Source: a virus. Taken from it: DNA of 64,000 nt. The stretch spans positions 1 to 64,000 of IMG/VR virus record IMGVR_UViG_3300023179_000001. The stretch is one strand, 5' to 3'. The notes beneath the pieces are model-generated. The model did no database searches. It saw nothing but the letters and a program-made list of their open reading frames with translations, and was not told the DNA's origin. Shown here piece by piece: positions 15,215-43,411 of this stretch; position 1 is the stretch's first letter; each line of letters begins with the position of its first letter. The translations under genes were made by a program, and so were the position numbers.

Positions 15215-17634
15215 CAGTACCCCACTCCTGCTTTTGTACTACCATTTAAAATTTCTGCAAAACTGGGATACCTTGAACTCATAGAAGATGATGATGAAGT
15301 TGAATTCAAAGATCTTAAAATATCTGTGAGTCTTTTAATTGCTTCCGTGTTGTCTCCGACCGCAGAAGTATTTTCTGGATCGTTGGTATTTGTTTTTGGC
15401 GTAGGAGGGGGCGTAGGAGCATAGTAAGGAGGAATTGCATATCTTGATGCAAAGTCTCTTTCTGGTGAAAATTGAGTACCAGGAGATCTTGGAACAGGCG
15501 TACTATTTAAAAATTCCGTTCCAAAAGAAGACGGCCTAGTAATACCTGTCGATATTGCTGCATCTGGAGACAGGCTAGATGTCCTTGGTGAAAATTGAGT
15601 GTCAGTAGAGTTTGGAACTGGCGTTCCATCTGGTAAAAACTTCTCTGCTCCGAAGGAAGCTGCTGAAAGGGCTCCAGAAATTAGTGTGCCTGGGCCTGGG
15701 AACAGTCCAGCCACTCCTGCTCCAACGGATGTGCTCATTACTGCCAAGTCTTTTGCTGTTATTTCTTCTCCGTTTTGATATTTTTCAATCACATCATAAA
15801 CATCTTTTGCTGCCAAAGCGATTCCAAGACCAGGAACAAGTTTGCCAGCATTTTTGCCTAGCATTTTCCCTGCTCCCATTGCACCTTTACCCAATAACTT
15901 ACCTGCTCCCATTGCACCTTTGCCAATGGTATTGCCTGCTTTCATTGCACCTTTACCAATAGTCTTACCCATTTCCAATCCACCATTGCCTAAAGATCCC
16001 GCTATGGAAACCGCAGTAAGGGCGGTAAGTGCTGCCGTTGCTGCCACTGCCGTTTTACCGAACGTGGCTAGATTGTCGGAAGATATATTAAGGCTTTCGT
16101 CAAACTTTACAACCACACCACTAATGTCTTTAGCCATCTTGTCCATGGCGTATTCAATTTTGGCCCCAGTTTTTGTTACTCGACCATCGAATGTGTCAAA
16201 AGTACTTTTTATTTTGTCTTCTGGATTCATGTTCGACTTGCGAATTTCATCCATACTCTTTTTAGAAATCTTCCCACCGCCCGACACATAGTCTCTCAAT
16301 ACAGCATCCGCACCCAATGGGTTGAGACTAAATCTTTGCATTATCTCATTTAAAACTGCTCCCAACTCTGCTGGGCTTCCCTTTTCCTTGTCTATCCCTA
16401 AAGTTTGGAACATTTGCTCGATTTCTTTTGAGACTATATCGCTACCACTAAGAGACAACATTTGAGCAAGCTCTGGACTACCGCCATACTTTTTATTTGA
16501 ATAAAACTCCATCCTAGCTTTTCGTTCTTCGGGCTTTTCATTTTCTCTGCCCAAAGATCCAAACAACTGCATTTGTCTTCTTACTTCAACGGCTGCTGGA
16601 CTTGCACCAGGAACCAAACTCAAAAGAGCCCTTGATGCTTGAGCTTGTTGAAATCTATCATTCCCAGAAAAAGAAGAATTAAATCCTTTAGCCGCTTCTA
16701 ATATCTTTGACGGATCGTTTTGAAAATTTGGCATTGATGCCAATACACCAGCGAACCCCTGCAATGAACTATTATCAATGTTCACGCCTTGAGCTAACTG
16801 AGAAATACCATCGCTCATTGTTGCTAAAAACTCTCCAATCACTGAGTTTTTTAACCCTGCTGCTGTGGCTATTCCTATGGTTTGGGCAAACGCTTTTTGT
16901 TGATCTTGAACACCAGCCCTTCTAGCAGTGCCCATGAAATTACCCTGCTCTTGAGCAGATATTCCATAAGCCCTTTCAGCCGATTCTCCTAATCCCAAAC
17001 CTTTGTTTTGTTCTTCAATCGAAAGATCTTTTCCAGAAGCTCTGGCTATTTCTAAAAGCCTTTGTCTTCTTTCTTCTGATGTAAAACCAAGATTTGATCT
17101 TTCTTCTGTAACGGCACCGCCAACAAAAGGGGCAATGGCATTTCTTTCTTGAGAGATGCCACGTTGACGCTGAAACAACGAACCCACACCAACAGTTAGC
17201 CCAATCGCTCCTGCGGCTCCTGCTATCATGTTTACGCCACGGCCAGCCTTTGAACCGAATGGAGAAAAATTCTCCATTTTGTCAAAAATGGCAGAAAGAC
17301 CAGATTTTTTTTCTAAAGATTTTTGAGTCGTTTCTATTTCTTTTAATTTGCGAATGTATTTGTCTAAAAGCTTCAGAGCCAAATCAACCTTGGCAGAATC
17401 GATCAACTCCGACTCAGGCATGGACTCGATTGATTTTTTAATTCTATTTATTCGACTTTGGACTTGTTCTTCGGCCTTTTTTAAATCTTCTGAAATCCTT
17501 TTTGATATAAACGCAGTGGATTTTGGATCTATCTTTTCTGATCCGATGGCACGGATGGACGCTTTTACTTTTTCTATATCTTTTCTAAAATCTGCCGTTT
17601 CAGCAGTAATTTTAATTCTAGCTTGTCGTGCCAT
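15214..17634 (-). CDS. Tail tape measure protein
   Basis: 806 residues, directly after the overlapping chaperone genes. The N-terminal 110 residues are coiled coil (ISEDLKKAEEQVQSRINRIK). A glycine-rich region at about residues 140-165 (MIAGAAGAIGLTVGVG) and a long one near residues 550-660 are typical tape-measure hydrophobic segments. The second contains three 11-residue units of the IGKGAMGAGK type. The C-terminal 130 residues are a Pro/Ser/Thr-rich linker with repeated TQFSP. With the usual length rule (about 0.15 nm per residue) the tail would be about 120 nm. No peptidase motif noticed. Confidence 0.85.
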   Translation of the reverse strand: MARQARIKITAETADFRKDIEKVKASIRAIGSEKIDPKSTAFISKRISEDLKKAEEQVQSRINRIKKSIESMPESELIDSAKVDLALKLLDKYIRKLKEIETTQKSLEKKSGLSAIFDKMENFSPFGSKAGRGVNMIAGAAGAIGLTVGVGSLFQRQRGISQERNAIAPFVGGAVTEERSNLGFTSEERRQRLLEIARASGKDLSIEEQNKGLGLGESAERAYGISAQEQGNFMGTARRAGVQDQQKAFAQTIGIATAAGLKNSVIGEFLATMSDGISQLAQGVNIDNSSLQGFAGVLASMPNFQNDPSKILEAAKGFNSSFSGNDRFQQAQASRALLSLVPGASPAAVEVRRQMQLFGSLGRENEKPEERKARMEFYSNKKYGGSPELAQMLSLSGSDIVSKEIEQMFQTLGIDKEKGSPAELGAVLNEIMQRFSLNPLGADAVLRDYVSGGGKISKKSMDEIRKSNMNPEDKIKSTFDTFDGRVTKTGAKIEYAMDKMAKDISGVVVKFDESLNISSDNLATFGKTAVAATAALTALTAVSIAGSLGNGGLEMGKTIGKGAMKAGNTIGKGAMGAGKLLGKGAMGAGKMLGKNAGKLVPGLGIALAAKDVYDVIEKYQNGEEITAKDLAVMSTSVGAGVAGLFPGPGTLISGALSAASFGAEKFLPDGTPVPNSTDTQFSPRTSSLSPDAAISTGITRPSSFGTEFLNSTPVPRSPGTQFSPERDFASRYAIPPYYAPTPPPTPKTNTNDPENTSAVGDNTEAIKRLTDILRSLNSTSSSSSMSSRYPSFAEILNGSTKAGVGY
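15857..15955. repeat. Three 33-bp repeats in the tape measure gene
   Basis: Units 15857-15889, 15890-15922 and 15923-15955 each contain a close variant of CCTGCTCCCATTGCACCTTT. They encode GxxxG-rich units that resemble a membrane-active or tube-lining segment. Confidence 0.8.
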
Positions 17635-18149
17635 TAGAATACGTCCTCAAATTCATCTTCACTTACAAAAGAAGATTTCTGCACCGTTGGCTTAATCTTG
17701 TCTTTGCCAAGGTTGGCTATAATCTCTTCTTCTTCGGCTTTGGTTAGCTCTCGATCATCCTTCCATTTAGAGAGATCAAACGTATTTCTTTCAAAAAACT
17801 TCTTATTTTTAAGTTTAAGCTCTTTTTCATACTCAGCCGAGACTTTTTCTTCTTGGACTTCATACTGAGGATTGAGGGAGGCTTGTCGAATAGAATCCAT
17901 GAGCTTTTCAGCTTCTTGGGGATTCCGTTCGTAGTAGTCCTCCAGCATCTCTATCCTAATCTCTTCGGCTGTATAGTCCATTATCGGTTTAGGAGGAGTC
18001 TTGTACTTCCTCATCATAAACCTAACCAATGCACGATTTGGATCTTGGAGATTACTAATAGCTATAAGATGTAAATTCAGATCAGGTAGATGCTGAGACA
18101 GCCGACTCTGAATCTGTCTTTTTTGTATCGACATCTTGTGGGTTTCCAC
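17634..18149 (-). CDS. Tail assembly chaperone, downstream frame (gpT-like)
   Basis: Open frame of 171 codons overlapping the end of the upstream chaperone by 68 bases and lying in its +1 frame. It is highly charged and helical (TAEEIRIEMLEDYYERNPQE, ELTKAEEEEIIANLGK). The frame opens only after a TGA just upstream of a GTG at 18149, with no convincing ribosome binding site there. Two overlapping frames directly before a tape measure are the conserved tail chaperone arrangement. It is therefore probably made as a frameshift fusion of about 286 residues, through the A-run at 18119-18124. Independent initiation is possible but less likely. Confidence 0.7.
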   Translation of the reverse strand: METHKMSIQKRQIQSRLSQHLPDLNLHLIAISNLQDPNRALVRFMMRKYKTPPKPIMDYTAEEIRIEMLEDYYERNPQEAEKLMDSIRQASLNPQYEVQEEKVSAEYEKELKLKNKKFFERNTFDLSKWKDDRELTKAEEEEIIANLGKDKIKPTVQKSSFVSEDEFEDVF

Positions 18150-18495
18150 TCAAAAGTTTGTTTCTGAATTCTTCTTCAAAATCAGCACACTTTTTGTAGA
18201 TATGTTCGATCACGTTTCTATCCCAGATGTTTCCACCAAAATCGGCAGCTTTCCACCAATCTGGAAACTCTTTTAGAGTCCATCTAAGATGAGAAATCAT
18301 GATATTGAAATCGTCTATGAGTGGATCAACCGTTCGTAGGTCGCCTGAGAGTCTGGCTCTCATAGCTTCGATAAGTGATCGTTCACTTAGAGTAGGTCTT
18401 CGGTAAAGAAAGGTTCCAGTCCAAGGAATCCCAGTTTCTTCACCGACAACACTGATGTCGAAACGATATTCCATCTTTGGCATCTTATAGGTCAT
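18082..18495 (-). CDS. Tail assembly chaperone, upstream frame (gpG-like)
   Basis: 137 residues; ATG with AAGGAG upstream. It contains TGIPWTGTFLYRRPTLSERS and a helical body (IEHIYKKCADFEEEFRNKL), then a polar tail. The position between tail tube and tape measure and the overlapping second frame match the gpG/gpGT chaperone pair, which coats the tape measure during tail assembly. A stem-loop separates it from the tube gene. Confidence 0.7.
   Translation of the reverse strand: MTYKMPKMEYRFDISVVGEETGIPWTGTFLYRRPTLSERSLIEAMRARLSGDLRTVDPLIDDFNIMISHLRWTLKEFPDWWKAADFGGNIWDRNVIEHIYKKCADFEEEFRNKLLSGNPQDVDTKKTDSESAVSAST
18118..18126 (-). promoter_or_regulatory. Candidate programmed frameshift site
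   Basis: On the minus strand the overlap contains ACAAAAAAG, read ACA AAA AAG in the upstream frame. Slipping Lys-tRNA by +1 (or by -2) on the run of six A puts AGA next and enters the downstream chaperone frame. A -1 slip hits a stop after about 14 codons, so the more familiar -1 event does not fit. Confidence 0.55.
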
Positions 18496-18510
18496 TCAAA
18501 TATCTCCTTG

Positions 18511-18521
18511 TTCAATCTAAC
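18511..18521 (-). repeat. Recurrent intergenic 11-mer GTTAGATTGAA, copy 2
   Basis: Exact copy in the gap before the chaperone gene, immediately 5' of its AAGGAG ribosome binding site and about 6 bases after the tube-gene stem-loop. Confidence 0.5.
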
Positions 18522-18527
18522 AATTAT

Positions 18528-18547
18528 GGGGGAGTTTTACCTCCCCC
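18528..18547 (-). terminator. GC-rich stem-loop after the tail tube gene
   Basis: Seven-base perfect stem GGGGGAG / CTCCCCC with a 6-base loop, 16 bases after the tube stop codon. No T tract follows, so it may act as a partial terminator or a 3' mRNA stabiliser that boosts tube expression relative to the chaperones. Confidence 0.6.
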
Positions 18548-18562
18548 GAAAATGCCTAGGGA

Positions 18563-18976
18563 TTATTGTCCAGCTTCGTCTGAGGACTTAATACCCTTGA
18601 AGTTCCAGCTTTCGCTCATCACGCCTCTAGCATCGACCGAGGTTTGTCTGGATTCTAGTTTTACACCTTCCATGAGAAGGATAACCGCTCCAGAGACTCT
18701 ATCGACCACTTCAGCCGTCAAAACTCCTTGAGTTAAGATTTGGCCGAGTCGTGGCATGATTCCAAGCTGCTTAACGCTTTCATTAGCTACTCGAAACGAT
18801 TGGCAGGACAGGTCAACCCTGTACCCAACCTCTGCGTATTCGAGTACTTCCAACTTATCAAGCACGTTAACTTCTTCTAATTGGATATTTTCGTTAAAGG
18901 TAACGCTTGATGCGTAGGCTACTTGAACCCCATTTAATCGGAAAATCGCTTTCGCTCCTGTCATTACTTGGCTCAT
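18563..18976 (-). CDS. Tail tube protein
   Basis: 137 residues, directly after the sheath gene. The N-terminal ARAIFRLNG-like strand (GAKAIFRLNGVQVAYASS), NIQLEEVNVLDKLEV and the central VDLSCQSFRV strand fit the XkdM/gp19-type tube fold. Its length matches contractile-tail tubes. It polymerises inside the sheath and is needed in high copy. The strong ribosome site (GGAGGGATGATCG before ATG) and the downstream stem-loop fit high expression. Confidence 0.8.
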   Translation of the reverse strand: MSQVMTGAKAIFRLNGVQVAYASSVTFNENIQLEEVNVLDKLEVLEYAEVGYRVDLSCQSFRVANESVKQLGIMPRLGQILTQGVLTAEVVDRVSGAVILLMEGVKLESRQTSVDARGVMSESWNFKGIKSSDEAGQ

Positions 18977-18989
18977 CGATCATCCCTCC

Positions 18990-21113
18990 TTATGCACTTT
19001 GCCGAATATCAGCTAAGTAGATAGTCGGCAGAATGAAGTCGATTCCCTGTACGGGTGTGATCGACACGTTAATTAAAGCAGTGCTACCTTCAAGAGCCAC
19101 TGAAAGATTCTTGTAGCCCAAGCCTTTGTTCAAATCGTCCCCAACAATAATATCTGCGGAGAGATAAGCGGTCATTCTGGCTTTGATGAAGTTTGCGATA
19201 GCTTCTGCACTTCCACTCTTTGCCTTGGTTCCAGTGAACACTAGGTCTAAGTTGTAGCGCATATCGTATGCAACATAACCTGCGGCTTGAACCACAGATT
19301 CTCTGTTGAATACAAAGCTAGGATCGATTCCATAGGTTGTGTTACCAACCACGCAACGATAGCCCCCTGTATCCAAAGGCTCGGCAATAGTAACACCAGC
19401 TTCGATAAGCTCTTGATAATCACGACGAGGATCGAAATCGCCAAGTGGCGATCTGATGTCGTTTGCATTAAGCACTTTAGAAGTAAGTGGTTCACCAACT
19501 TCGGCACCTGCTCGCATACCTGCTAGAATACAGGCTAGAGCCCACGGATCTTTCCACTCTAGTTCTGATTGCTTATTAAGCACTCTCACATCTTGTCCAA
19601 CCATTTGAACATAGCCAGAGTTGATGGTTCGAGCAGCTTGTTTTAAAGCATCTTTTGAACCCTTGTAGCTCGCAAAGCAGCTTCTTTCGGAGCGTCCTAC
19701 GGTTGACCATCCCCATGCTGCGTGTGATGCAGCAAGAGCATTTACTGAATCAATGCTGACTGCGCCTGAATCTTCAGAGATTAGAGGCACAACAATAGTG
19801 ATTCTTTCTTGTTTTAAAGCTTCAAAAGCATCTGCCCAATCGCTATTCGCAGCAGTGCCGTCCGTTGCACCAGAAAGGAATGTTGGCGTTGCCAATGTAG
19901 CAAGCGAACCATAAACATTTTGTTTTCTGGTAGCCATAACCATTGTCGAGAAGATGCTTAGATATTCGCAAATATCTAAAACATCTGCTCTTAAAGGAGC
20001 AGCCACAGACGAAATTGAAAGATTTTCATAATAATCTAATTCATCTGCATTTCGTTGCTTGTTTGCACCTACGACCGTGACTTCGTATTTGGCACCTGCG
20101 CTCATCATATCTGCAAGGCTTTGAAGGGTGTGTTTATTTTTCCCTTCTTCATCTTGAAGAACGATGTCGAGATTGTCTCCTGCGGCTCCAGTGACCGTGG
20201 TGGTTAGTTTTAACTGCCCACCAGACACCTTCAACGACAGTTTGGCCTCTGTGCCAGCACCGACGTATTTGACTCGAAGTTGGTCTTCTCCACCCAATTC
20301 AGGGCTGACTTCGGAAAGAGCACCCTTTTTAACTTCAAATACTCTTGAACCCTTTTGACCACGATCTTCACCAGTCAATCCTACGATGGTATCGAGAGTT
20401 GACGATGCTTCGTTTACCCAAAGCGAACCATAATCCAATTTGGCTACAGCAGCATCGACTTCGACTTTAACTTTTCCATCAACGACTGAAGCTACGACTG
20501 GCTTGCTTGGAGCCCATTTTGTAGCATCATTCATGTTGGCGACTAGAGTTTCAGCAGTTTCAGCAACACCACTCAACGAGCAAGTGTATGTGTACTGAGT
20601 GCCACTGACTCTAACCACTAAAGTTTTTGCTCCACCTGACACGTTGTATGGGCCATCAACTGTTCCAACGATTGCAGCAGCTTCATCTGCCTTTTCGCCT
20701 TCTGAAACAGTGAGGTTGATTACGTTTTCATCCGAACCCCAGTTCTTCGACTTAACGTCAACCATATCAACATCGGCAGCACTTTTAAGTGCCAACGATG
20801 CCTGAGTGCTTCCATTTACTTTGTAAACAACGATGGTACTTGCACCATTTACAATTCGAGGATCTCTCGATGGATTGGCTAATAGCTCTAGCGCATCAGC
20901 GATTGGCCCCTCCTTGTATCGTGCTTTCGCAGCTTGAATACCTGGGCCACTCAAAATATCAAGAGTACGAGGCTCGCCTCCTACGGCTTCCCCAATAACC
21001 CCAACGACTCCTACTGATTGCAGTGGAAATCCTGTGAGATTCTCAACTACGATTTTTGAATATGCACCAGGCTTGATGATTGTTGCGCCATTAAATGTTC
21101 TTTTTATAGCCAT
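18990..21113 (-). CDS. Tail sheath protein
   Basis: 707 residues. The N-terminus (FNGATIIKPGAYSKI, LTGFPLQSVGVVGVIGEA) and C-terminus (SVALEGSTALINVSITPVQG, then ILPTIYLADIRQSA) are typical sheath segments whose end strands link subunits. The core has AWGWSTVGRSERSCFASYKG and LNKQSELEWKDPWALACILAGM. Residues of about 115-370 form a Val/Thr/Ser-rich beta insertion that probably faces outward, making it longer than T4 gp18 (659 residues). It is followed by the tube gene, the invariant order in contractile phages. Confidence 0.9.
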   Translation of the reverse strand: MAIKRTFNGATIIKPGAYSKIVVENLTGFPLQSVGVVGVIGEAVGGEPRTLDILSGPGIQAAKARYKEGPIADALELLANPSRDPRIVNGASTIVVYKVNGSTQASLALKSAADVDMVDVKSKNWGSDENVINLTVSEGEKADEAAAIVGTVDGPYNVSGGAKTLVVRVSGTQYTYTCSLSGVAETAETLVANMNDATKWAPSKPVVASVVDGKVKVEVDAAVAKLDYGSLWVNEASSTLDTIVGLTGEDRGQKGSRVFEVKKGALSEVSPELGGEDQLRVKYVGAGTEAKLSLKVSGGQLKLTTTVTGAAGDNLDIVLQDEEGKNKHTLQSLADMMSAGAKYEVTVVGANKQRNADELDYYENLSISSVAAPLRADVLDICEYLSIFSTMVMATRKQNVYGSLATLATPTFLSGATDGTAANSDWADAFEALKQERITIVVPLISEDSGAVSIDSVNALAASHAAWGWSTVGRSERSCFASYKGSKDALKQAARTINSGYVQMVGQDVRVLNKQSELEWKDPWALACILAGMRAGAEVGEPLTSKVLNANDIRSPLGDFDPRRDYQELIEAGVTIAEPLDTGGYRCVVGNTTYGIDPSFVFNRESVVQAAGYVAYDMRYNLDLVFTGTKAKSGSAEAIANFIKARMTAYLSADIIVGDDLNKGLGYKNLSVALEGSTALINVSITPVQGIDFILPTIYLADIRQSA

Positions 21114-26135: not shown

Positions 26136-27593
26136 TTATCCCAACGCTGGCTGTTTCAATCTGCCAATGTTCTTAATCTTTACCCAACCACGAGGTCGGA
26201 AAAGAATAGGAGTATTGTAGTACAACTGCATCCATCGGATGCTCGATGCTACGGTAGCTAGAGGGAATTTGAGCATCGGAGAAAGCTCACGAAGAGCTAA
26301 AACCGACTCATCCATCTGTCCGATATAAGCAACGCCCGCTCCTGGGAGGGTTTCGTTACCATCGAGTACGTTGGTTGTTGCACCAGCAGATGCGACTTCA
26401 GCCACAAGGTATTTTTTACCAGCAACACCGTCTTCAAGACGTGTGCGGTAAACTCTGTACCCTTGGGTTAAATCGTTACCTGATACGCTGCCACGAGTTA
26501 CGACGATCTTCACTTCTGAGTTTACGCTCGTCACAACTGCGTTAGCCGATCCTGCGGTAGCTGCCGATTCTCCCGAACGAGAGATTGCGGTTACTTCGTA
26601 TGCGTAGGTGCCATGCTCACCAGCTTGGAATCCACGGCTTGTGGACTTAGCTTGAACTGACACAACTGCGCTTGCAGGTGCGGTTGGTGCCATTGCATTG
26701 TCGGCTGCTGCTGGAGCAGTTTCGTCGACACGCAAGAACACGTCTGGACGAAGTTCTACAGTTCCACCAGGGGTTTTTACTTTGTCAGCAACAAAGCCAA
26801 CCATTGCATCAGCAGGAGTTACAGGAATTCCATAACGTCCTTTGCTGAAGAAGGCTTTGCTGAAATCGCTATGGGCCGTGAAAGGCAAATAGCAATGGGT
26901 TGGATACATATAGTTATCCAACAGAATTCTTGCGACTTCTGTGAAAACAGATTCGCTAAGAACATCGCCACGAAGATCAACAACGTGTTCTTCGGACACA
27001 GCAGGACGGCCATCACCAGCAGTGCTGGCATCGGCAATTCCTAGAGCGTGTTGACGATCAAGACCGTCAAAGCTTTCGGAGATGATGCTGCTGTTACCTT
27101 TGAACAGAGATTCTTCCATTCGTTGAAGCATCCATTTAGCTCCGTTTTTGGTTTCGAGAGCTACTACGTTTCCGTGAGCAGGTCGAACCAAGAGCATTGG
27201 ATGAGTGATTTCACGGGTTGTCCCCATGAATTTCACGAAGGCTGCCTTACGTTGATATTTGCTATCTTCGGTTCTAGGCAATCCACCTTCTTGAATAAAG
27301 AATCCACCACGTCCACCATAACTGGACAGTAGGTTGTACTCTTCAACAGTGTTGTATGCTTTTGTTTTTGGAATATCGTTATAAAGAACGATATTTTTTT
27401 CCATGAAGGACACGATTTTCAAAGTAGCATCTAAAGATTCTACTCGAAGTGCGCCTCCGTTTGATTGAGCAGCAGGATCGCTTGCGTATCCAGCACTCAG
27501 GGCTTTATTTAATTCAGCTACGGTCGTCTGATCGGAAACTCCGAACCCGTCCCCGTGGCCTTCGAATTGCTTAGGATCAAGTGTAGGTATCAT
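26136..27593 (-). CDS. Major capsid protein with inserted Ig-like domain
   Basis: 485 residues; ATG with AGGGAGG upstream. The location after protease and scaffold, the N-terminal arm and the C-terminal SPMLKFPLATVASSIRWMQL with PILFRPRGWVKIKNIG fit an HK97-fold capsid of large myophages. Residues of about 300-425 form an Ig/FN3-like insertion (GTYAYEVTAISRSGESAA, GYRVYRTRLEDGV, YLVAEVASAGATTNVLDGN), likely displayed on the surface. Residues of about 32-55 share a motif with the protease C-terminal region (AGY, PAxQSxGGALRxESLD). Confidence 0.85.
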   Translation of the reverse strand: MIPTLDPKQFEGHGDGFGVSDQTTVAELNKALSAGYASDPAAQSNGGALRVESLDATLKIVSFMEKNIVLYNDIPKTKAYNTVEEYNLLSSYGGRGGFFIQEGGLPRTEDSKYQRKAAFVKFMGTTREITHPMLLVRPAHGNVVALETKNGAKWMLQRMEESLFKGNSSIISESFDGLDRQHALGIADASTAGDGRPAVSEEHVVDLRGDVLSESVFTEVARILLDNYMYPTHCYLPFTAHSDFSKAFFSKGRYGIPVTPADAMVGFVADKVKTPGGTVELRPDVFLRVDETAPAAADNAMAPTAPASAVVSVQAKSTSRGFQAGEHGTYAYEVTAISRSGESAATAGSANAVVTSVNSEVKIVVTRGSVSGNDLTQGYRVYRTRLEDGVAGKKYLVAEVASAGATTNVLDGNETLPGAGVAYIGQMDESVLALRELSPMLKFPLATVASSIRWMQLYYNTPILFRPRGWVKIKNIGRLKQPALG

Positions 27594-28448: not shown

Positions 28449-28664
28449 TCACAGTTTAAGTTCAATATCTTTAAGGTTTTCAACCAAAGATCCATAATCT
28501 TCGGCATCAACACCTTCGTCTGCGTCCAACTTTGCGGTGAGATCTCTCAAGGCTTGAGCGATTTCATCGAGCTTGGACATCACTGCTGCCATCTGCTTCG
28601 CTGGGGCATCATGTAAAACCTTCTGCCCTAGTTCGGCTTCAGACAATCTTCCTAGTTTTGTCAT
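28449..28664 (-). CDS. Small helical head-assembly protein
   Basis: 71 residues, strong GGAGG five bases before ATG. Predicted helical (KQMAAVMSKLDEIAQALRDL) with an acidic end. It overlaps the end of the protease gene. Possibly a small core or chaperone protein of the prohead; no family recognised. Confidence 0.5.
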   Translation of the reverse strand: MTKLGRLSEAELGQKVLHDAPAKQMAAVMSKLDEIAQALRDLTAKLDADEGVDAEDYGSLVENLKDIELKL

Positions 28665-29476
28665 GTTGCCTCCTTTTTAATAAAAAGTTTTGAAACGAGT
28701 AGCGCAGCGATCTCGTCAGAGAAGTCTGGCCTTCTTTCCAAAACAAACTCCATTGATTTTAGAAGATCGTTAAATTTTAACGCATCCTCTAAAGCCTTTT
28801 TCATCGCCTTCTTTCTCTCATCCATTACCTTCTTGGCTTTGGAATCAAGAGACTCTGTGCGAAGAGCACCACCGCCACTCTGCGTTGCAGGTGATACGCT
28901 ATAACCTGCTGCCATTGCTTTTTCTGCGATGTCTGGCTCTGAGAAAGATTTGCTTAAAAGCTCCCAAGAGCAATCTGTGTTCACAGGGCAGTTGGTGATA
29001 GCAACATTTCTGATTTTAGCTTTTTCGATTGTTTTATCTTCTCTGCGAATTACTTTGCCTTCGATAGAGAAGCCTAATTTTCTGTTTGGAACTGTAGAAA
29101 GTGCTTTAGCAAGTTCCCAAATAGCATCTGCTCTTGAGGTTCCTTTTAAAATATATCCTTCGCAAGTCCAACCTGCCACTCCTTTAAGCTTTGGGCTCCA
29201 TTCGTGAAGAGAAGCGTGGTACTCAGCTTTTTCTGGATAACCAACAATAGCTGATGTGGCTTGTGAGTGATTGTCGTTAAAATGTCCGTGGGTAAGGAAT
29301 TCGTCGAAATCAAGGCCATCTGCTTTTACGATTTCGCCTTGTCGATCTTTGCGGCTGGTGGACATGATTCCAGAGATTTTTCTGGAATTGTGGGCATCTT
29401 CTGATTTTTCAATAAAAGCGACTTCGCTCAACCAAACACGGAAATCGTTTTCACCAATGAAGAAATTTCTATCCAT
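28661..29476 (-). CDS. Prohead protease
   Basis: 271 residues. Residues of about 35-160 have the HK97/U35-type prohead protease pattern: GIMSTSRKDRQGEIVKADGL, the catalytic His segment HGHFNDNHSQA and the catalytic Ser segment RKLGFSIEGKV. It cleaves scaffold and capsid during maturation. After residue 180 a tail carries AGYSVSPATQSGGGALRTES, which closely resembles the capsid N-terminal arm, and then a helical stretch. First gene downstream of the FliA-type promoter candidate at 29543-29570. Confidence 0.85.
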   Translation of the reverse strand: MDRNFFIGENDFRVWLSEVAFIEKSEDAHNSRKISGIMSTSRKDRQGEIVKADGLDFDEFLTHGHFNDNHSQATSAIVGYPEKAEYHASLHEWSPKLKGVAGWTCEGYILKGTSRADAIWELAKALSTVPNRKLGFSIEGKVIRREDKTIEKAKIRNVAITNCPVNTDCSWELLSKSFSEPDIAEKAMAAGYSVSPATQSGGGALRTESLDSKAKKVMDERKKAMKKALEDALKFNDLLKSMEFVLERRPDFSDEIAALLVSKLFIKKEAT

Positions 29477-29542
29477 AGACCCTCATTGCCTCTACTCCGT
29501 CAATCTTGAGTCTATGGGCGATTCTTATAAGATGTTACACGA

Positions 29543-29570
29543 TAATCGGAAAATAATACAATATACTTTA
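29543..29570 (-). promoter_or_regulatory. Candidate FliA/SigD-type promoter for the capsid operon
   Basis: Minus-strand TAAAGTAT, 12 bases, TCCGATTA. Against the E. coli FliA consensus TAAAGTTT-N11-GCCGATAA, 7 of 8 and 6 of 8 positions match, with one extra spacer base. It lies in the 125-base gap before the protease gene, the widest gap in the virion region, leaving a leader of about 60 bases. The match to the phage's own sigma class makes it the best candidate late promoter here. Confidence 0.55.
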
Positions 29571-29601
29571 GTGCTACTTGTTAAATCCTACAACGCAATG
29601 T

Positions 29602-29832
29602 TTAATGATTATTAGAAACCGATTTTTCTTTTTTTGGTGCTACTTCGTAAACAAAACTTGATTGAATTGATTTTAATAGCTCAGTGCTGATTCCAACATC
29701 TTTCCCACAGGATTTGCAAACCGCATACATCCCGTTCTTGTCCCAATAGATAAGCTTCATACGAAACTTAGCCTGAGATTCGTATGATTTAATCATGTTG
29801 GATTGGCAATATGGACAATCTAAGTTCTTCAT
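29602..29832 (-). CDS. Small zinc-ribbon protein
   Basis: 76 residues from ATG 29832 (TGATG overlap with the preceding stop). Two CxxC pairs, CPYC near the N-terminus and CKSC at about residue 40, frame IYWDKNGMYAV and make a zinc ribbon. A basic tail follows. Mu Com and similar small zinc proteins regulate phage translation, but that link is only an analogy. It is the last gene before the protease promoter gap. Confidence 0.55.
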   Translation of the reverse strand: MKNLDCPYCQSNMIKSYESQAKFRMKLIYWDKNGMYAVCKSCGKDVGISTELLKSIQSSFVYEVAPKKEKSVSNNH

Positions 29833-32922: not shown

Positions 32923-35900
32923 TTAAAACGGTTGTGGCTGAGGCTGCGCTTGAGTTGTTGGTTGTTGTAACTCTCTTCTAGCATTTAACAAAGAATTTTT
33001 CATAGCTCTTGTAATAGGTGCATTTGCCAAAAAATATTCAAAGTTAGGCTGAGTCATACCCAAAACAGATCGAACCCTACGCTTAGACATTACAATTCTT
33101 CTTTCACCTCTTCTCCACCAACTGATAGCTCTTTGTGCATGAGCCACTGCCGCCTGTTGATCTGGTGGAAGCTGTGGGGTTGGGGCTGGGGGAGGCTCAA
33201 CTCGTCGTGAACCAGATGCAGCCTGTCCCATCACATTGGAATATTCAGGCCCAAAGACCTTTGCTGCGGCTTCTTTCAATTCTACAAACTTCTCTGCAAA
33301 ACGAGATGCTATAGAATCTCTGTTTGAATCCCAGATTCCACGCCAACCCTTGCCCAACATAAACTTTTTACCCAAGTGAACCAACATTCGATAAGACTTT
33401 CCTTCGCTTATTTCTTGCTCTGTAAGCGGATACTCGCCTTCTACGCCATTTAAAGATTTGGTTGTTATTTGCTGATGAGAAAGTGGCATCCTTTCTTCTG
33501 AAGTAAAAATGTACTTTTTACCATTTGAAAACGCAGAAAAATGACAAGGCTCTTTAAACAGAGCAAGCTCGCTGGGTGTTAAACTTATTCCATAAGTAGA
33601 TAAAAAGTTTTTAAAAGAGTTTCTGTAGCCTGTAGCGTCAGAGTCGTGTTCAAAAGAAAAGCCCTGATTCGCCCATGTGTATCCACCCACATTTAAAGCA
33701 GCCGTAACCGTAACCGTTCCACCGTTCGGTTGTGCCTTCATCAACTTTCTTTGACCAACATTTATTAAATTCCCCAGTCTGGCTCCGTTTCTATGGGTTG
33801 TGTTAACCTTCAAATAATCATTGTGAATGTGTGGCCTTCCACCTCTACGATTCCAAGATCTTCGCCATTCGTTTGTAATTACTTCTCCGTTTTCTGTTTT
33901 GGCTTCGAGATCAAACCACAAACTACCTTCTGAGAACTGCAATCCTATAATTTTTACAGTTATTCCCTGAGCAGAAAAATCATAAGGCCAATCCTCTTTT
34001 CTCAGAGATCTGCCAAAAATAGATCTAATGCTTGCGTCCAATTCCCTAACCTGTTCTGCATTTAATCTAGTTCTTGAAATTTTAGAAATAAAATGAGCCA
34101 TAGAACCATGAAGCTCTGCTAGTGCTATTCGCTCTTGTTTTTTTCTTTCTTTTTCTTCTCTTTCTATTCTTTCTAGATGTTCTTGTATTTTTGGAACTTC
34201 AAAGTTATCGCCCGTTCTAGCTTGTAACAGGGCCGTTGAATAACCTGTAGGTAGCTGGTTGGCCTCTTCAAGTGCCTTTACCGCAGAAGTAAATCCAAGA
34301 TTGCCGTAGCCTCTGGCATCTCTGGCTAGGCTGTTTTGGTGTGTCAATCCCGAATGGATATTGTCCACTACCTTCATTTGTTCATGCAGCTTTTCTAAAA
34401 CACCCTTTATTGAATTGGCAGACTCTAATTGAGACATTACAGAATCAAGAGTAACTCCAGCAGAATTCAATCTTTTAAACTGCTCTGTATGTCTGTAGGT
34501 GGGGTTATCAAGATAACCAAAAATCTTTTCATTTAAAGATTGTTTTATATGTTTAATAAATTGGGCTTTCTTTTCTGGAGATTCAAAAGGCTTTTCAGAT
34601 TGATCTTGTGGCGGTGGTGGAGGAATTTCTGGTTGTAAATCTTCTTCTTGGAGAATTGGTATCCCCATGTTTTCCAGCGTTTCTTTAGCTCGCTTCCCAG
34701 ATTCCGTGTCGGCAAACCCTGTTGCAAGTCTCTGGAGTAAGTCTATCTTTTCGTGTGGGACTTCTTCCATTTCATCTATTATTTGCCTTGCCCTTGCGTT
34801 GCCCATCTCAGCCAATTTTTTAATTTTATTGAAAGCATTTTCGTCTATGGTTTTGGGCTTTTGACTTGGCTCATGATAAATATAGATCCAACGGCTTCCT
34901 CTACGATATTTCCGCAGATACTTGTGGGTTCTGGCCTTGAACAAATCCGAAGGAATAAAAAAGATTTCGTTTTTGTTAAGAATAGAATCAATTACAAAAA
35001 CAGCATCGCTTTTATGAAAAGACGCACGAATGTCGTCTAATGAAACTGGCTTTTCCATCCACTCTCTTTCCTCTTTGGTTAGCTGTTTTCCTTCGTTCAT
35101 TTTTCTATTTAATTCATATTTCTTTTTTACAATTTCTGACAAATTCACATCCCAATCGCTGTTTTGAGCGGTAATCCAGTAAACATTTACGTTGTTTCTT
35201 TGTCCAACACGATGGGCTCTGTCTTCTGCTTGTCTGACATCTGCCGCAGTCCAAGGCAGATCGTTAAAAACCACTTTGTCTGCTCGTGTTAAAGTCGCTC
35301 CTACTGCTAGGGATTGTCTTGTAGAAACAAAAACCCTTTTAGTTGAAGTTTCGTTTTGAAACTCCTCTTTAGCCTTTTCTCTGGCATCATCTGACATTTG
35401 ACCATGATGCAATATAGCGACATCTCCAAGCTCTTCTTTTAGCTTTTTGGCAGCATCTAGCGATTCTGTAAAAACCAAAACATTTGAATCAGAAGAGTCT
35501 ATAACTTCTTGCACAAAGTCTTTTGTGGCAGAGGTTTTTGCTATTGCTGCGACAACCCTGGCCGCACTCATTTCTCCGATGTCGGTTGGCAATCGAGGCA
35601 TACCCGAAACTGGTACTTCGGCAATTTGGGTTGTTTTTTCTGGTAAATCAGTAAGCACTTTCTTTTTCTGTCTAGCCAGATAAACACCGTTCTTTTTAAG
35701 CTTATTCCAAACCCCACCAATAGTTCCAAACTTCAAACCAAACCTAGAAAACAAGCCAGGTCTAATAATTTCTATTTGAGTATGAAGCTCCTCTTTTTTG
35801 TTTTTGATTGCCGTACCAGATAAAAGCATCTTGTGGGCAAACATGGGAGCCATCTCTGAAATCAGTTTTGTTGCTTTGGCTTTTGGATTTTTTATTCGAT

Positions 35901-38610
35901 GCGACTCATCAACAATAATAGCATCAAACCCAGCCGCTTCAATGGCTGGTCTAAACTTTTCTAAGGATTCGTAATTAACGGTAGCGATATTTACGTTTCT
36001 TAAATCAGGTGCTCCGTGTTTTAAATCTGCTGCGATTAGCTCTTTGGATTTGTTTTGAAAGTGTCCTGGGAAAAACTTTTCGGCCTCTTTAATCCAAGTC
36101 CTTCTGACAACCTTGGGACAAACAACCAAAACACGTTTGTTTTTACTTGCAACGAAAGCAAGAGATTGAAGCGTTTTTCCAAGCCCCATCTCATCGCCAA
36201 TCAGAGCATTACCATCGGCTGCTTCTAAAAATCTGACCGCCTCGTTTTGGTAGGGGAATAGTTTAAATTGGGGATCGAGCTTTTCAGAAACATGAGGAAT
36301 AGGCTTTCTTAGCTCTGCCTGTCTTTCTTCTTCTCTTCTGACCGCCTCATCAAAGCCTTCTGTGACCACTTCCCAATCTGGGAATCTTTCTTTGATTTTT
36401 TGAACGGCCTCTTGAGCCAGTTCTATTTCATAGGTTTCACGAGACTTTTCTGTGGGATTGTATTCCATGATCCCACTGATTTCCCCACCCCTGTTGGAGA
36501 AAAAGTTTACTAGCTTTGAATCGTATGGATGATAAAAACTTATCTTGTTGTCTGAGGATACCCTCACCCTCACAACCTTGCTGCTATCTCTGCCTTCGGA
36601 CTCTGGCAGTGGATCTGGTATGTGACTTAAAGATACTCCAAGTTCGCCCAAGCGTTGCTGATACTTTTCCCAATCAAATGTTTTTTCAACATCTCTTGGA
36701 ATTACCCAAACGAAATTACCATTTTCGTCGTTTCCACCCTTGAGCCTCATATCTCTATGAAGTTGGACATACTTCTCAAAATTATTTCTATTTAGTCTGC
36801 CATCAGACTTGAGAGGTAATTGAATAGTTTTGTAGGTACGATGCCTTTCTGGGACAACCATGTGAATGGTCGGATCTGAAAGCCCAGTATGCTCGTACTC
36901 TTCTTCTCCAAAATGTTGTGTCAACTGCCTTTTGTATTTTTTTAAGATGTTTCTAACTAAATTAAGAGATTGCGTCTGTATCTCTGGAGGCTGAAGCTTA
37001 ATTCTATCAAAAACGACCTTCCATCTTTGCTTGTCTAGCTTATTAAAACCAATTTCATTTAACTCTCTTGCATCGTCTTTGGAATTTAGGTGCTCACCCA
37101 TATCCAACAACTGCTCCATGCTATCATTGTCGCCATAGCGATGCGCTTCTTTTCCGTCCCTATTGTAGACGTAAACGGTTCTGCTCCCTTTTTGGTATTT
37201 CCTAATATAAAGATGATTTGGTCTGTCGGCCTTCTGCAAATACTCAAAATAGGTTGGATAATGAGCTTCAACTTCAAAGATAATTGATTTCTTAGTGTCC
37301 GAGTCCCAGCCTTCTGGTTGATACTCTGAAAAAACTTTTAAGAATTCTTTTTTGGACTCTGAATAGCCCATGGGCATTTGGCCTTTGTGCTTACTAGACA
37401 TTTGTTTAACAAACTTGTCTGCGTCTTCAAAGGAATCAAACTCTTTGATTTCAAGGTTAACTTTCTTTGGAGATCTAACAACAACAAAGTGCTTAATCTT
37501 ACCTTTTTCCTTTGTTTCAAAGCTTTCAAAGTTTTTCTTTTGTGCTCTCTCTTCTTTGGAGATTTTAGAGAAATCTTTTTTATTAAGCCGTTCTATGTCT
37601 TTCCAAGGAAATTTAATTCCATTGTCAGTTAGAATCTTTGGCTCTTTGGGTCTTTTTTCTGGTGAGTCCTGCTCTCCGGTGTCCAGCCCGTACAAATAAG
37701 CAGATAGTTCTGTAAGATATTGCGAAACTTCTTGGTTTCTTGGCTTCCCGTCCTCGCCCTTTCCAAACTCCTTAGCAAGCTCTTTGCTTGGCTTATAAAT
37801 AGTGTCGTGGGTAAAACCAGAAAATACCTGCTGCCTGTGTGTTTTGATTTGAAGTTCTGAAATCTTGCCAGAACTGGTTTTAAAAAGAACATGAATAGCC
37901 CTGTAGCCATCGGGCCTTGGCTTAGATGAAGAATCTTCTATCTCTACAATCTGAAAACTTTTTTTCATGTGCTCAAGAACCGATTTCTGATTTTCTATTG
38001 AATCAGATAGCGAGCGAGCACCAATAACATCGGTAGCTGTATTTAAAGATCTTTCTTTCAATCTGCCGTGCATCTTCTCATGCAGGGACAGTTTGTCTTT
38101 TAAACGATTTCCAAAATGCGATGCACCTGCCGCTTTTAGGGCAAAGCCCAGACCTTGTAATTCAACGTAATCGGGTTTGAACTTCTCAATAAAAAGTTCA
38201 ACATCTTTGACGCTGGTTTCTTTCCCAGGTTTTACAAAGCCTTCGTTTTCTGGTGGTGGAGGGCCAAGTCCGTTAGAAGGTCTGCCGTAATCTGCTGGTG
38301 TACCGCCCTCTTTTAAATGCTCTTCTCTTTTCTTGTGCTCTTCGGATGCTGTGGATTCTAGCTTGGCAGATAAAGCTTGTTCTATCTTTTTGATTTTTTC
38401 TTCAAAGTTTATCTTTTTTGTGGGCCTCTTTTGGCTCTGCTTTTCGTTTGTATTTTTTTTGCCAGTTGAGATGGGTCGCCAATCGCCTTCGGCAATTTTC
38501 TTATATCGCTGACCATTCCACTCGTGGACTGTGCCTATGGGTAAGCTGGCCTTTAGAATTAAATCTAAATCAAAGGATTTTACCCTTTTTTCTGTGATAA
38601 AAAAATTCAT
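32923..38610 (-). CDS. Polyvalent protein: RelA/SpoT-like domain fused to SWI2/SNF2 helicase
   Basis: 1895 residues. Residues of about 130-310 form a RelA/SpoT-type nucleotidyltransferase: RLKDKLSLHEKM, TDVIGARS (D194), PRPDGYRAIH (Y236, H240) and ELQIKT (E252), so the known synthetase catalytic positions are kept. Residues of about 780-1160 are a complete SWI2/SNF2 ATPase: GDEMGLGKT (805-813), DESH (901-904), SGTAIKN (931-937) and QAEDRAHRVGQ (1127-1137). Basic-aromatic modules (HLYIRKYQKGSRTVYVY, KARTHKYLRKYRRGSRWIYI) flank the helicase. The C-terminal 600 residues are unassigned. Multi-domain proteins beside portal/MuF are often packaged and injected to act on host nucleic acid or signalling; that is inference here. 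Confidence 0.8.
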   Translation of the reverse strand: MNFFITEKRVKSFDLDLILKASLPIGTVHEWNGQRYKKIAEGDWRPISTGKKNTNEKQSQKRPTKKINFEEKIKKIEQALSAKLESTASEEHKKREEHLKEGGTPADYGRPSNGLGPPPPENEGFVKPGKETSVKDVELFIEKFKPDYVELQGLGFALKAAGASHFGNRLKDKLSLHEKMHGRLKERSLNTATDVIGARSLSDSIENQKSVLEHMKKSFQIVEIEDSSSKPRPDGYRAIHVLFKTSSGKISELQIKTHRQQVFSGFTHDTIYKPSKELAKEFGKGEDGKPRNQEVSQYLTELSAYLYGLDTGEQDSPEKRPKEPKILTDNGIKFPWKDIERLNKKDFSKISKEERAQKKNFESFETKEKGKIKHFVVVRSPKKVNLEIKEFDSFEDADKFVKQMSSKHKGQMPMGYSESKKEFLKVFSEYQPEGWDSDTKKSIIFEVEAHYPTYFEYLQKADRPNHLYIRKYQKGSRTVYVYNRDGKEAHRYGDNDSMEQLLDMGEHLNSKDDARELNEIGFNKLDKQRWKVVFDRIKLQPPEIQTQSLNLVRNILKKYKRQLTQHFGEEEYEHTGLSDPTIHMVVPERHRTYKTIQLPLKSDGRLNRNNFEKYVQLHRDMRLKGGNDENGNFVWVIPRDVEKTFDWEKYQQRLGELGVSLSHIPDPLPESEGRDSSKVVRVRVSSDNKISFYHPYDSKLVNFFSNRGGEISGIMEYNPTEKSRETYEIELAQEAVQKIKERFPDWEVVTEGFDEAVRREEERQAELRKPIPHVSEKLDPQFKLFPYQNEAVRFLEAADGNALIGDEMGLGKTLQSLAFVASKNKRVLVVCPKVVRRTWIKEAEKFFPGHFQNKSKELIAADLKHGAPDLRNVNIATVNYESLEKFRPAIEAAGFDAIIVDESHRIKNPKAKATKLISEMAPMFAHKMLLSGTAIKNKKEELHTQIEIIRPGLFSRFGLKFGTIGGVWNKLKKNGVYLARQKKKVLTDLPEKTTQIAEVPVSGMPRLPTDIGEMSAARVVAAIAKTSATKDFVQEVIDSSDSNVLVFTESLDAAKKLKEELGDVAILHHGQMSDDAREKAKEEFQNETSTKRVFVSTRQSLAVGATLTRADKVVFNDLPWTAADVRQAEDRAHRVGQRNNVNVYWITAQNSDWDVNLSEIVKKKYELNRKMNEGKQLTKEEREWMEKPVSLDDIRASFHKSDAVFVIDSILNKNEIFFIPSDLFKARTHKYLRKYRRGSRWIYIYHEPSQKPKTIDENAFNKIKKLAEMGNARARQIIDEMEEVPHEKIDLLQRLATGFADTESGKRAKETLENMGIPILQEEDLQPEIPPPPPQDQSEKPFESPEKKAQFIKHIKQSLNEKIFGYLDNPTYRHTEQFKRLNSAGVTLDSVMSQLESANSIKGVLEKLHEQMKVVDNIHSGLTHQNSLARDARGYGNLGFTSAVKALEEANQLPTGYSTALLQARTGDNFEVPKIQEHLERIEREEKERKKQERIALAELHGSMAHFISKISRTRLNAEQVRELDASIRSIFGRSLRKEDWPYDFSAQGITVKIIGLQFSEGSLWFDLEAKTENGEVITNEWRRSWNRRGGRPHIHNDYLKVNTTHRNGARLGNLINVGQRKLMKAQPNGGTVTVTAALNVGGYTWANQGFSFEHDSDATGYRNSFKNFLSTYGISLTPSELALFKEPCHFSAFSNGKKYIFTSEERMPLSHQQITTKSLNGVEGEYPLTEQEISEGKSYRMLVHLGKKFMLGKGWRGIWDSNRDSIASRFAEKFVELKEAAAKVFGPEYSNVMGQAASGSRRVEPPPAPTPQLPPDQQAAVAHAQRAISWWRRGERRIVMSKRRVRSVLGMTQPNFEYFLANAPITRAMKNSLLNARRELQQPTTQAQPQPQPF

Positions 38611-38849
38611 ATATCTTTAATAATTTCAGATATTTCTACCTTGATTTCATCAAGCATTTTCTTAAATCTTTTATCCCAATACTCCATGATTTCGTGTTGT
38701 GCTTTAAAATAGGGAGGTCGTTCTTGACCAAAGATCTTCTGGCCCTTGACTCTGACCTCAACATCCAACTTGTCCTTGGCTAAAGCTTTAATTAGCTCTT
38801 CTCGTTTGGCATCTAGTTCGTCCTTCGTGCCCTCGATGGTAAGCCTCAT
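38607..38849 (-). CDS. Small unknown protein between portal and giant protein
   Basis: 80 residues, Lys/Glu-rich, with a beta-alpha start (MRLTIEGTKDELDAKREELI) and KGQKIFGQERPPYFKAQHEI, then a C-terminal helix. Four-base overlaps with both neighbours show it is part of the same operon. Function unknown. Confidence 0.5.
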   Translation of the reverse strand: MRLTIEGTKDELDAKREELIKALAKDKLDVEVRVKGQKIFGQERPPYFKAQHEIMEYWDKRFKKMLDEIKVEISEIIKDI

Positions 38850-40615
38850 AGCTTTATTTCCTCAAAAAAACGGGCACTTTGACTCTTTTGAGTCTGACCT
38901 TTGGCTTGAGATTCTAGCTTATCTAACTCGGCTTGCAGTTCTTCAACGCTCATGTTCTCGTAGTCTGGCTCTTGCGTGTCGCCCTGAGCTTGAACTTCTG
39001 GATTGTCCCCAGATGACATTCCTGGTTGTCCTGCTAGCTGCCCTAGTGGTGTCAAACCGTCTTGTCCCATCGCCCCTTCTGGCTGCGGCATCTGACTTTG
39101 AATAAAGTTGATAAGCGAAGAATCTAAAACCACGTCGCCTGGGTTTTTGATTTTCTCAAAATCAGGCAAAGGCTTCATATCGTGCTCGGCTCTGATTTCA
39201 TTGATAGTCTTAAAGTTTTTGACCATCTGGACGCATTTATCTAAGTCGTCTTTTTCAGTAGAGGCATTTAAACCTACAAACTCCAGTTCAAAGTTTGGAT
39301 CAAGTCTCCAGATAATATAGTTGTTTAGCAAACTCTCAACGTGAGCGAGTAGCGGTCTTAGTCCTTTATCTTTTGAGTATTCTAATCTTTCACCTTGGTT
39401 TCCGCTTCCAAGACCGCCTGAGCCTGAGTTTTGTCCTGAGCCTTGCTTAGAAATATCAAAACCAATTTCGATAGGATCAATCATGAACACACCGCAGATG
39501 GTCTTGATACAGTATTCAAGCCACTTGCCGAATTCCATCTCTCTGTTGGTTGAGTGGAGAGATTGCCAATTCATTTTTCCATCTTTGCCAAGAGCCATGA
39601 TTGGGGTTCGCCAAGCGTTATTTACCCCAGTGACCTGTGCGTACCACTGTCTTCTAAACGCTTCTAATTGATCGGGTGGAACCATCCCCTCGAAAGTTAA
39701 AATCCCCTTTATTGAAGAGCCTTGAGAGAAGAATTTTCGGTTGTATGTTTCAGCGTTCATATGTGACGTGATAGTTGTCACAAGCATTTCAATTTCGCTA
39801 AATCCATAACCTAGAGCAGTCATATCTGTTCTAGGATTTCTCACTCCAAAAGCCATTTCCCATTCATCGTAAACGTGTCGTTTTACTCCGTTGATAACCT
39901 GGCAGAATTTAGGATGCTTTGGTTTAAACTCTTTAAAGTATTTATCTGCACCATAGTCGATTACGAATTGGGATTCTTTGGTGCTTTGGTTGTAGTCGAA
40001 TCTCTCAACCATTTCCTTTTTGTCTGGGATGATTCGTATAGTCGAAGCATCGACCGCAAGGAATGAATAGGGTTTACCATCGTTTCGGGGGACGATTTCA
40101 AAGTTGACCTGATCGAAGGTGAGACTGTCTCTAGTGATTTTTCTTAGGAAAGTCTCAAAATCATCACGCCTTTTCATCTCTGGAGTGTCCTCAAAGTTTT
40201 CTGGAACCCCACAGTTTTGAATGAACTGTTCTATTTCTTTGATGCGTTTTTCTTCGGCCTTGGACGGGCTTTTATCATCATCTCTAAGTTTGATTTTAAA
40301 ACCCAATGCGTATTTGTCTTTGGCTACTCGTTTGAATGTAGCGACCTGATTGGTTCGTGTCTGAATGATTGATGCGACAATAGGATCTGCGTATGTGATT
40401 TGTCGGCATTTGTCGTAGGAAAGGATTGAATACTTTTCTTTATATCCAAACGAGGTTTGGCCGTAGGCCAGTGGATCCACTAGGGACGATTTGGAATCGT
40501 AGGCTTGCCTGTCTGGAGTGAGAAGACCTGCCTTCATCAACTCATAGCGAATCGGTAGGATTTCCTCTTTTACAAACTCTACCGATTTGGTTAGTGCGTC
40601 TTTTACGATTCCCAT
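38846..40615 (-). CDS. Portal protein
   Basis: 589 residues. Portal features include TYADPIVASIIQTRTNQVAT near the N-terminus, NFEIVPRNDGKPYSFLAVDA, YGFSEIEMLVTTITSHMNAE with FFSQGSSIKGILTFEG, and WLEYCIKTICGVFMIDPIEI. The C-terminal 90 residues are Gln/Gly/Pro-rich. The portal is the dodecameric DNA channel at one capsid vertex. Its place between the unknown 527-residue gene and the MuF cluster is normal, although the terminase is about 4 kb upstream rather than adjacent. Confidence 0.85.
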   Translation of the reverse strand: MGIVKDALTKSVEFVKEEILPIRYELMKAGLLTPDRQAYDSKSSLVDPLAYGQTSFGYKEKYSILSYDKCRQITYADPIVASIIQTRTNQVATFKRVAKDKYALGFKIKLRDDDKSPSKAEEKRIKEIEQFIQNCGVPENFEDTPEMKRRDDFETFLRKITRDSLTFDQVNFEIVPRNDGKPYSFLAVDASTIRIIPDKKEMVERFDYNQSTKESQFVIDYGADKYFKEFKPKHPKFCQVINGVKRHVYDEWEMAFGVRNPRTDMTALGYGFSEIEMLVTTITSHMNAETYNRKFFSQGSSIKGILTFEGMVPPDQLEAFRRQWYAQVTGVNNAWRTPIMALGKDGKMNWQSLHSTNREMEFGKWLEYCIKTICGVFMIDPIEIGFDISKQGSGQNSGSGGLGSGNQGERLEYSKDKGLRPLLAHVESLLNNYIIWRLDPNFELEFVGLNASTEKDDLDKCVQMVKNFKTINEIRAEHDMKPLPDFEKIKNPGDVVLDSSLINFIQSQMPQPEGAMGQDGLTPLGQLAGQPGMSSGDNPEVQAQGDTQEPDYENMSVEELQAELDKLESQAKGQTQKSQSARFFEEIKL

Positions 40616-42218: not shown

Positions 42219-42711
42219 TAGTTTCAATCCTAATATGAGTTATATCGATCTGCCCATACATATCGGTCAAACCCTTTTTAATTTTATTATTTAGCTCTTT
42301 TTCTGATTGAGCCCTGATGCTCTTCATCAACACTTGTTGCTCCGTCCCATCTTGTGTTGAAAAAGTGATTGAAGCATTGAATGTTTTTGTGGGCTCTTCT
42401 TTGTGCAGAATCTTATCTAAATTACCTTTTTGTAAATCGTTTGAAAGTTCTTTTAGACCTTTGGTGAGATGAACGTACTTGTCGTAAAAATCATCTGTGG
42501 TTCTATAACCTTCAACCGAGTGACCTCGGCTTTCCCAATAAGATGTTTCATAAGGAATGAATCCACCTTCGGGCATCCATTTATAGTGTTGAGCGAAAGG
42601 AGAATCGGGGCCGACCACCATGGGGTCTAAAGATATGGCTTTCTTTAGATCATTTTTCAGCCCCTTCTCTATCGTATCATCCAATAAAGCTGCTATCTCG
42701 TCCAGTTCCAT
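42208..42711 (-). CDS. Unknown protein after sigma factor
   Basis: 167 residues from ATG 42711; a GTG lies two codons upstream. The N-terminal 30 residues are helical; then GPDSPFAQHYKWMPEGGFIP and SYWESRGHSVEGYRTTDDFY. The C-terminus is a small beta-alpha domain (NASITFSTQDGTEQQVLMKS). It overlaps the sigma-factor gene by 35 bases, so the two are co-translated. Family not recognised. Confidence 0.5.
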   Translation of the reverse strand: MELDEIAALLDDTIEKGLKNDLKKAISLDPMVVGPDSPFAQHYKWMPEGGFIPYETSYWESRGHSVEGYRTTDDFYDKYVHLTKGLKELSNDLQKGNLDKILHKEEPTKTFNASITFSTQDGTEQQVLMKSIRAQSEKELNNKIKKGLTDMYGQIDITHIRIETNED

Positions 42712-43360: not shown

Positions 43361-43411
43361 AGACACCTGATCAAAATTAGATACACCGCAATCTTACGGT
43401 GAATTGGGAGT

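Follow-up and report, generated by a model that had tools for sequence, protein, structure and literature searches.

A conserved leader RNA with two predicted folds, beside a FliA-type promoter candidate, in front of the protease–capsid operon of an uncultured SPO1-like phage

The gap before the head protease gene

The region considered here lies in a window of 64,000 nt (positions 1 to 64,000 of the 103,921-bp IMG/VR record IMGVR_UViG_3300023179_000001), and centres on a gap of 125 nt (29477-29601) between the gene for a head protease (28661-29476) and a small zinc-ribbon gene (29602-29832). The following features, in window coordinates, are needed for the discussion.

11085-11111, minus strand: second FliA-type candidate, TAAA-N15-TCCGATAA, which precedes a baseplate-like gene (9159-11027)
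26136-27593, minus strand: SPO1-like major capsid protein (phrog_752, E 2e-89), in the same operon as the protease
28661-29476, minus strand: head maturation protease (phrog_1028, E 9e-53), first gene of the operon
29532-29561, minus strand: sigma70-like promoter candidate, TTGTAT-N18-TAACAT, overlapping the FliA-like site and positioned by leader comparison
29543-29570, minus strand: FliA-type promoter candidate, with -35 element TAAAGTAT (29570-29563), a spacer of 12 and -10 element TCCGATTA (29550-29543)
29602-29832, minus strand: 76-aa C4 zinc-ribbon protein, a candidate switch factor, single copy and adjoining the leader in relatives
38846-40615: portal-like gene, upstream of the capsid operon
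42677-43366, minus strand: phage sigma factor, with regions 2 and 4 and a FliA-like region 2.4 signature, RGAVLDEVR

A first-pass annotation had pointed to a promoter-like motif before the protease–capsid operon, in the widest gap of the virion module, and had matched it to a sigma factor encoded about 13 kb upstream. The motif is indeed there: TAAAGTAT-N12-TCCGATTA reads from 29570 to 29543 on the minus strand, which is the strand of the operon, and is the single exact copy in the whole 103,921-bp record (the reversed control gave none). The sigma gene, too, was found upstream in the direction of transcription, at 42677-43366. The description of the gap needs some softening, as it is either the widest of the virion module or among the widest, depending on the start codons chosen.

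Two neighbouring genes deserve mention. Between the portal-like gene and the capsid operon, an unusual neighbour at 32923-38610 on the minus strand encodes a protein of 1,895 aa, part of which is helicase-like (phrog_62). The gene next upstream of the sigma gene (43412-43633, minus strand) encodes a cold-shock-domain protein (PF00313, E 5e-17); an RNA chaperone might likewise play a part at a structured leader.

The FliA-type site and its promoter class

How closely does the site resemble the promoters used by FliA (sigma28)? It shares with them a TAAAG -35 element, a CCGAT-A -10 element and the presence of a phage sigma factor with RGAVLDEVR, and differs in having T for G at the first -10 position, a spacer of 12 rather than 11 (11 is the optimum for FliA, so this one is one longer) and an overlapping sigma70-like candidate. 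The sigma signature is kept, as RGAVLDEVR or KGAVLDEVR, in six relatives, and the gene was found in G002, G003, G005, G007 and G010; a search of six distant-clade records did not find it, an empty answer that shows little. The best-scoring NCBIfam model for the protein was FliA_WhiG, yet its 71.3 bits fall well below the family cut-off of 189.6, and the phage collection searched contained no match to it.

As the first-pass annotation allowed, so short a motif could arise by chance, and the check that it suggested, a sigma-28 matrix run over both strands with the gaps set against shuffled sequence, came out in favour of the promoter class. The motif scored 17.0 with the FliA matrix, exceeded on the two strands of the 104 kb by a single site, which is inside a gene, and sense upstream segments contained eight sites scoring at least 9, against 1.9 +/- 1.3 in dinucleotide shuffles (maximum 5 of 60), with three such sites in antisense upstream segments. 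The enrichment in gaps whose absence was to have counted against the motif is also seen with CCGATWA, of which the sense upstream gaps contain seven copies, one of them the query motif itself, where the genome rate predicts 0.75 (P about 1e-5; antisense, two). The longer form TCCGATWA has three gap copies, located before the capsid operon, the baseplate-like gene (9159-11027) and an endolysin/amidase gene (record position 89151-89882). Without the query site this leaves two, against about 0.2 expected in the record of the window phage, and the relative G001 has two against 0.24; these numbers are small, and the evidence that they give for a promoter class is good but not overwhelming. G001 has TCCGATAA in the corresponding capsid leader and also ahead of its orthologous endolysin gene, and in both phages the FliA-type site at the capsid leader is 30 nt before the RNA element described in the next section. 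The motif and its class are shown by sequence statistics, and the motif probably belongs to a small late-gene set.

Some copies of ACCGATAA come immediately behind a stop codon and may signify something different. CCGATAAGG recurs at 54186 and 11091 of the window (both on the minus strand) and at 98388 of G003, in one case immediately after a stop codon, and may be a translation or other signal instead of a promoter. FliA-matrix matches in G001 and G003 were not above shuffles; those in G002 exceeded them, but with a different repeated -10 element, GACGATGT. Thus, at 60420-65350 of G002 (record coordinates, minus strand), TAAAGTTT is followed after 11 or 12 nt by GACGATGT or TACGATGT before four genes, with TATAAT-like strings close behind. 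G001 (12184-20947, record coordinates) has the repeated sigma70-type sequence TTGACT-N17-TACACT-GTATTCA before many small genes, and G003 (17168-70857, record coordinates) has TTGACA-N17-TACACT/TACAGT in the same situation; both look like early promoters.

The capsid leader was compared across loci obtained from IMG/VR by capsid-protein searches (33, then more), comprising a window clade (capsid identity 64-85%) and a distant clade (35-40%). A clear FliA match was present in only two of 34 leaders, those of the window and L010, in each case 30 nt before the RNA element, so the site is not conserved at the capsid operon among sigma-bearing relatives, and a strict FliA promoter is ruled out as a rule for the family. 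Over the 34 leaders the mean FliA-matrix score was 2.32 (shuffled, 1.94 +/- 0.49) and the sigma70-matrix score 8.43 (shuffled, 5.63 +/- 0.32), and a TTGAC -35 element is present in 18/18 distant-clade leaders. (A Gibbs motif search upstream of the RNA element locked onto the coding conservation of the upstream gene, and was not used.)

Might the FliA match, then, be a coincidence lying over a host-type promoter, such that a host sigma70-like polymerase starts at TTGTAT-N18-TAACAT and control is exerted by the leader RNA only? Sigma70-like promoters are found family-wide at the same place, TTGTAT-N18-TAACAT standing where relatives carry TTGACA-N17-TATAAT-like boxes. On the other side, the boxes of the window are weak on their own, being poor matches that do not rise above shuffles, whereas only one site in the genome scores above the FliA-like one, which is of an enriched class. 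We consider such a coincidence fairly unlikely. The suggestion of a sigma-controlled late promoter holds up in so far as it draws on the RGAVLDEVR signature, the gap enrichment, the placing of TCCGATWA before late-type genes and the sharing of sites with G001; it does not extend to the family, with FliA matches in 2/34 leaders and sigma70-like sequences prevailing. Since a FliA-like sigma signature, an enriched motif class and sites before late-type genes occur together, a FliA-type late promoter is plausible for the window phage and G001 on sequence grounds, and our judgement as to whether it is used is evenly balanced.

The conserved leader RNA and its exclusive pairings

Three further features, all downstream of the motif, come into play at this point.

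29488-29519, minus strand: conserved leader RNA, with P1 formed by GCC (29519-29517) and GGC (29490-29488), and P2 by ACTC (29511-29508) and GAGT (29497-29494)
29508-29517, minus strand: CCAUAGACUC, which forms the 5' arm of the competing stem and overlaps P1 and P2
29473-29482, minus strand: GGGUCUAUGG, which forms the 3' arm of this stem and spans the start codon of the protease gene and some of its ribosome-binding site

The first-pass annotation missed an RNA element that lies about 24 nt downstream of the promoter motif, directly before the head protease gene; it is this element that appears to carry the conserved control. All 34 leaders examined in the window clade (two duplicates aside) have it before the protease gene, most commonly as GACTCAAGTTTGAYGGAGTRG, and its layout is P1, a short unpaired stretch, GACTC, a 5-13 loop, GGAGT, in most cases a single purine, and P1'. 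In four nearly complete records, a covariance model found the element once per genome, always before the protease gene. The P2 helix (ACTC/GAGT) is paired in 100% of cells; one A-U pair is changed to G-C, and G-U changes occur several times. P1 varies in sequence, but can form in 29/29 distinct leaders if sliding of the register is allowed; the scores add up to 353, whereas exchanging the 5' and 3' flanks at random among leaders gave 255 +/- 19 (highest of 2000 permutations, 329); column-based covariation of P1 is weak because of this sliding. The window's own P1 is a short one, of 3 bp with perhaps a bulged pair in addition, and the fold of its leader is only modestly better than shuffles (z -1.57).

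The leader RNA is previously unlisted, there being no match at gathering score to the covariance models of Rfam. Such a leader was not described in the literature searched, in which the set of 224 candidate structured RNAs of Weinberg 2017 was compared only via Rfam. When the gapped DNA pattern AGACTC-N-GGAGTRGTTG was sought in viral contigs, most matches were due to chance: the closing CAAC of P1 accompanied 8/120, six of these eight being leaders before the protease gene. A leader peptide in TTG-AYG-GAG-TAG was ruled out by the finding of TGG in place of TAG, and a kink-turn by changes of the A-U pair of P2 to G-U and G-C.

The arms of the element have alternative partners. In the group of leaders that includes the window (group 1), the 5' arm pairs with the protease start region, the window stem CCAUAGACUC/GGGUCUAUGG covering the AUG at 29476; in the other group, the 3' arm (GGAGTRG...) forms part of a terminator-like hairpin, with a T run behind it in several cases. 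These competing pairings beat within-group permutations (z 6.7 and 4.8, for groups that were defined after the pairings had been seen). P2 is part of the predicted minimum-energy structure of one leader only, the competing fold usually being better by 2-14 kcal/mol, and when P2 is forced to form, more of the start region becomes unpaired in most group 1 leaders (the fraction going from 0.19 to 0.49 in the window and from 0.10 to 0.72 in L032). An exclusive alternative fold that hides a start or terminates, as expected of a cis-acting RNA switch, is therefore found, in predicted folding. In the distant clade, where the leader covariance model R1 gave no convincing match, the arrangement is GGCCC-GGTAG-hairpin-GGTAG-GGGC, of which the last bases double as the base of a strong terminator-like hairpin located between promoter and start codon; as modelled, this clade shows the same switch logic with other sequences.

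Since P1-P2 is exclusive with a start-hiding stem or an intrinsic terminator, its formation would turn the operon on. We think it likely that the RNA switch is real, and the leader RNA, which appears to hold the capsid genes in the off state until they are switched on, is a more important feature than the motif beside it. Could the phage sigma factor instead be the sole switch, acting at TAAAGTAT-N12-TCCGATTA in front of an ordinary untranslated region? The FliA-like signature, the enrichment of CCGATWA before late genes, and the capsid and endolysin sites common to the window phage and G001 would all fit, but the leader element is present in all relatives and the FliA match in 2/34, and the exclusive pairings beat permutation; sigma control alone seems improbable to us. 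The structures could also be explained by plain insulation, with terminators that end the upstream operon and start-hiding stems that only tune translation, nothing being switched. SPO1 does have, between the genes for portal and protease, a hairpin with a T run behind it, and portal-side genes are upstream here too. However, the promoter of the distant clade precedes the terminator, and the few tens of bases from terminator to start codon leave little or no room for another promoter; moreover, the group that includes the window has a start-hiding stem and no terminator, and a competing hairpin is conserved in both clades. Insulation of this kind is, in our view, an unlikely explanation.

The zinc-ribbon protein, the proposed switch and comparable systems

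Taking promoter and leader together, we propose that the gap 29477-29601 may be the control region of the head protease–capsid operon. Transcription would start just upstream of 29520, from the FliA-type promoter with the phage sigma factor, from the overlapping sigma70-like promoter, or from both. In the default, OFF state, CCAUAGACUC would pair with GGGUCUAUGG, hiding the protease start codon; in the ON state, the P1-P2 hairpin (GACUC...GGAGU, closed by P1) would form and the start region would open. In some relatives the same receptor hairpin would be set against an intrinsic terminator instead. The likely candidate for the switch factor would be the zinc-ribbon protein encoded directly upstream, in the manner of Mu Com on mom mRNA. 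We lean towards the scheme as a whole (promoter or promoters, two-fold leader RNA switch and zinc-ribbon factor), in which the use of either promoter, switching of the RNA in vivo and binding of the leader by the zinc ribbon are inferences.

A C4 zinc-ribbon gene of 65-90 aa lies directly upstream of the leader in nearly all those loci of both clades that reach that far, a linkage established statistically; the gene was matched in 11/11 records, once each apart from one marginal second match, and the proteins of the two clades are homologous. Zinc binding by the 76-aa protein is suggested by its cysteines. In phage Mu, a hairpin of the mom leader is bound by the small zinc protein Com, which opens the start-hiding structure (PMC6483171); Com is encoded immediately upstream of mom. 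The protein considered here is likewise a small C4 zinc protein whose gene immediately precedes the one that it would control, with a leader hairpin beside a start-hiding structure, and its binding would turn the gene on. The systems differ in that a capsid operon is found here and a DNA modification gene in Mu, that a terminator replaces the start-hiding stem in some relatives, that knuckle spacing and sequence are different, and that binding here is putative. Comparison with Mu Com by hhalign gave 14-18 columns only (57% and 29%), with one knuckle matched, and the gpCom PHROG gave an E of 0.15, for 2/15, so that Com-family profile similarity over the zinc domain was not found. Solved structures and a fold search gave only weak zinc-ribbon resemblances, to RNA polymerase subunits and initiation factors. 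By analogy, then, the zinc ribbon may work like Com, with no claim that it belongs to the Com family; that it is the switch factor is a possibility to which we give somewhat less than even weight.

The leader also invites comparison with the terminator/antiterminator leaders of bacteria (ANTAR, BglG-type and riboswitches), which share with it a receptor hairpin exclusive with a terminator or start-hiding stem, and an ON polarity that is identical in both platforms; it differs from them in being without an Rfam match and in a phage capsid operon. In the late control of lambda by Q, at pR'-tR', a sigma70-type promoter is followed by a short leader, a terminator and the late genes. The distant clade has this layout, but here a conserved RNA hairpin competes with the terminator, whereas the target of Q is paused polymerase, with no need for a hairpin of that kind. 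SPO1 (Herelleviridae) has a related head protease and capsid protein (37-48% identity), but its annotation shows no zinc-ribbon gene in the interval from portal to protease, and the leader element was not seen there either. The hairpin of SPO1 mentioned above (L236:2862-2900) has the form GACCCTATG...CATAGGGTC-ATTTTT.

If the scheme is true, uncultured SPO1-like phages control their capsid genes after transcription has started, by means of an RNA receptor that couples to a start-hiding stem or a terminator and has a candidate protein partner. The Com/mom idea would then reach beyond a modification gene, to the production of virions; there would be a small RNA–protein pair to study, and a phage FliA-like sigma factor would be tied to a defined late promoter set. 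A bolder and as yet doubtful extension would see here a new class of phage RNA switch, in which a one-per-genome receptor hairpin in the capsid leader is read by a zinc-ribbon protein encoded next to it, acts on translation or antitermination according to the relative, and sits atop a FliA-type sigma regulon that sets late timing.

A host search (genome contigs, capsid alignment) found nothing. In one distant relative, a group I intron (RF00028, 78.9 bits) was found inside the capsid-protein coding stretch (L207:6200-6465, plus strand).
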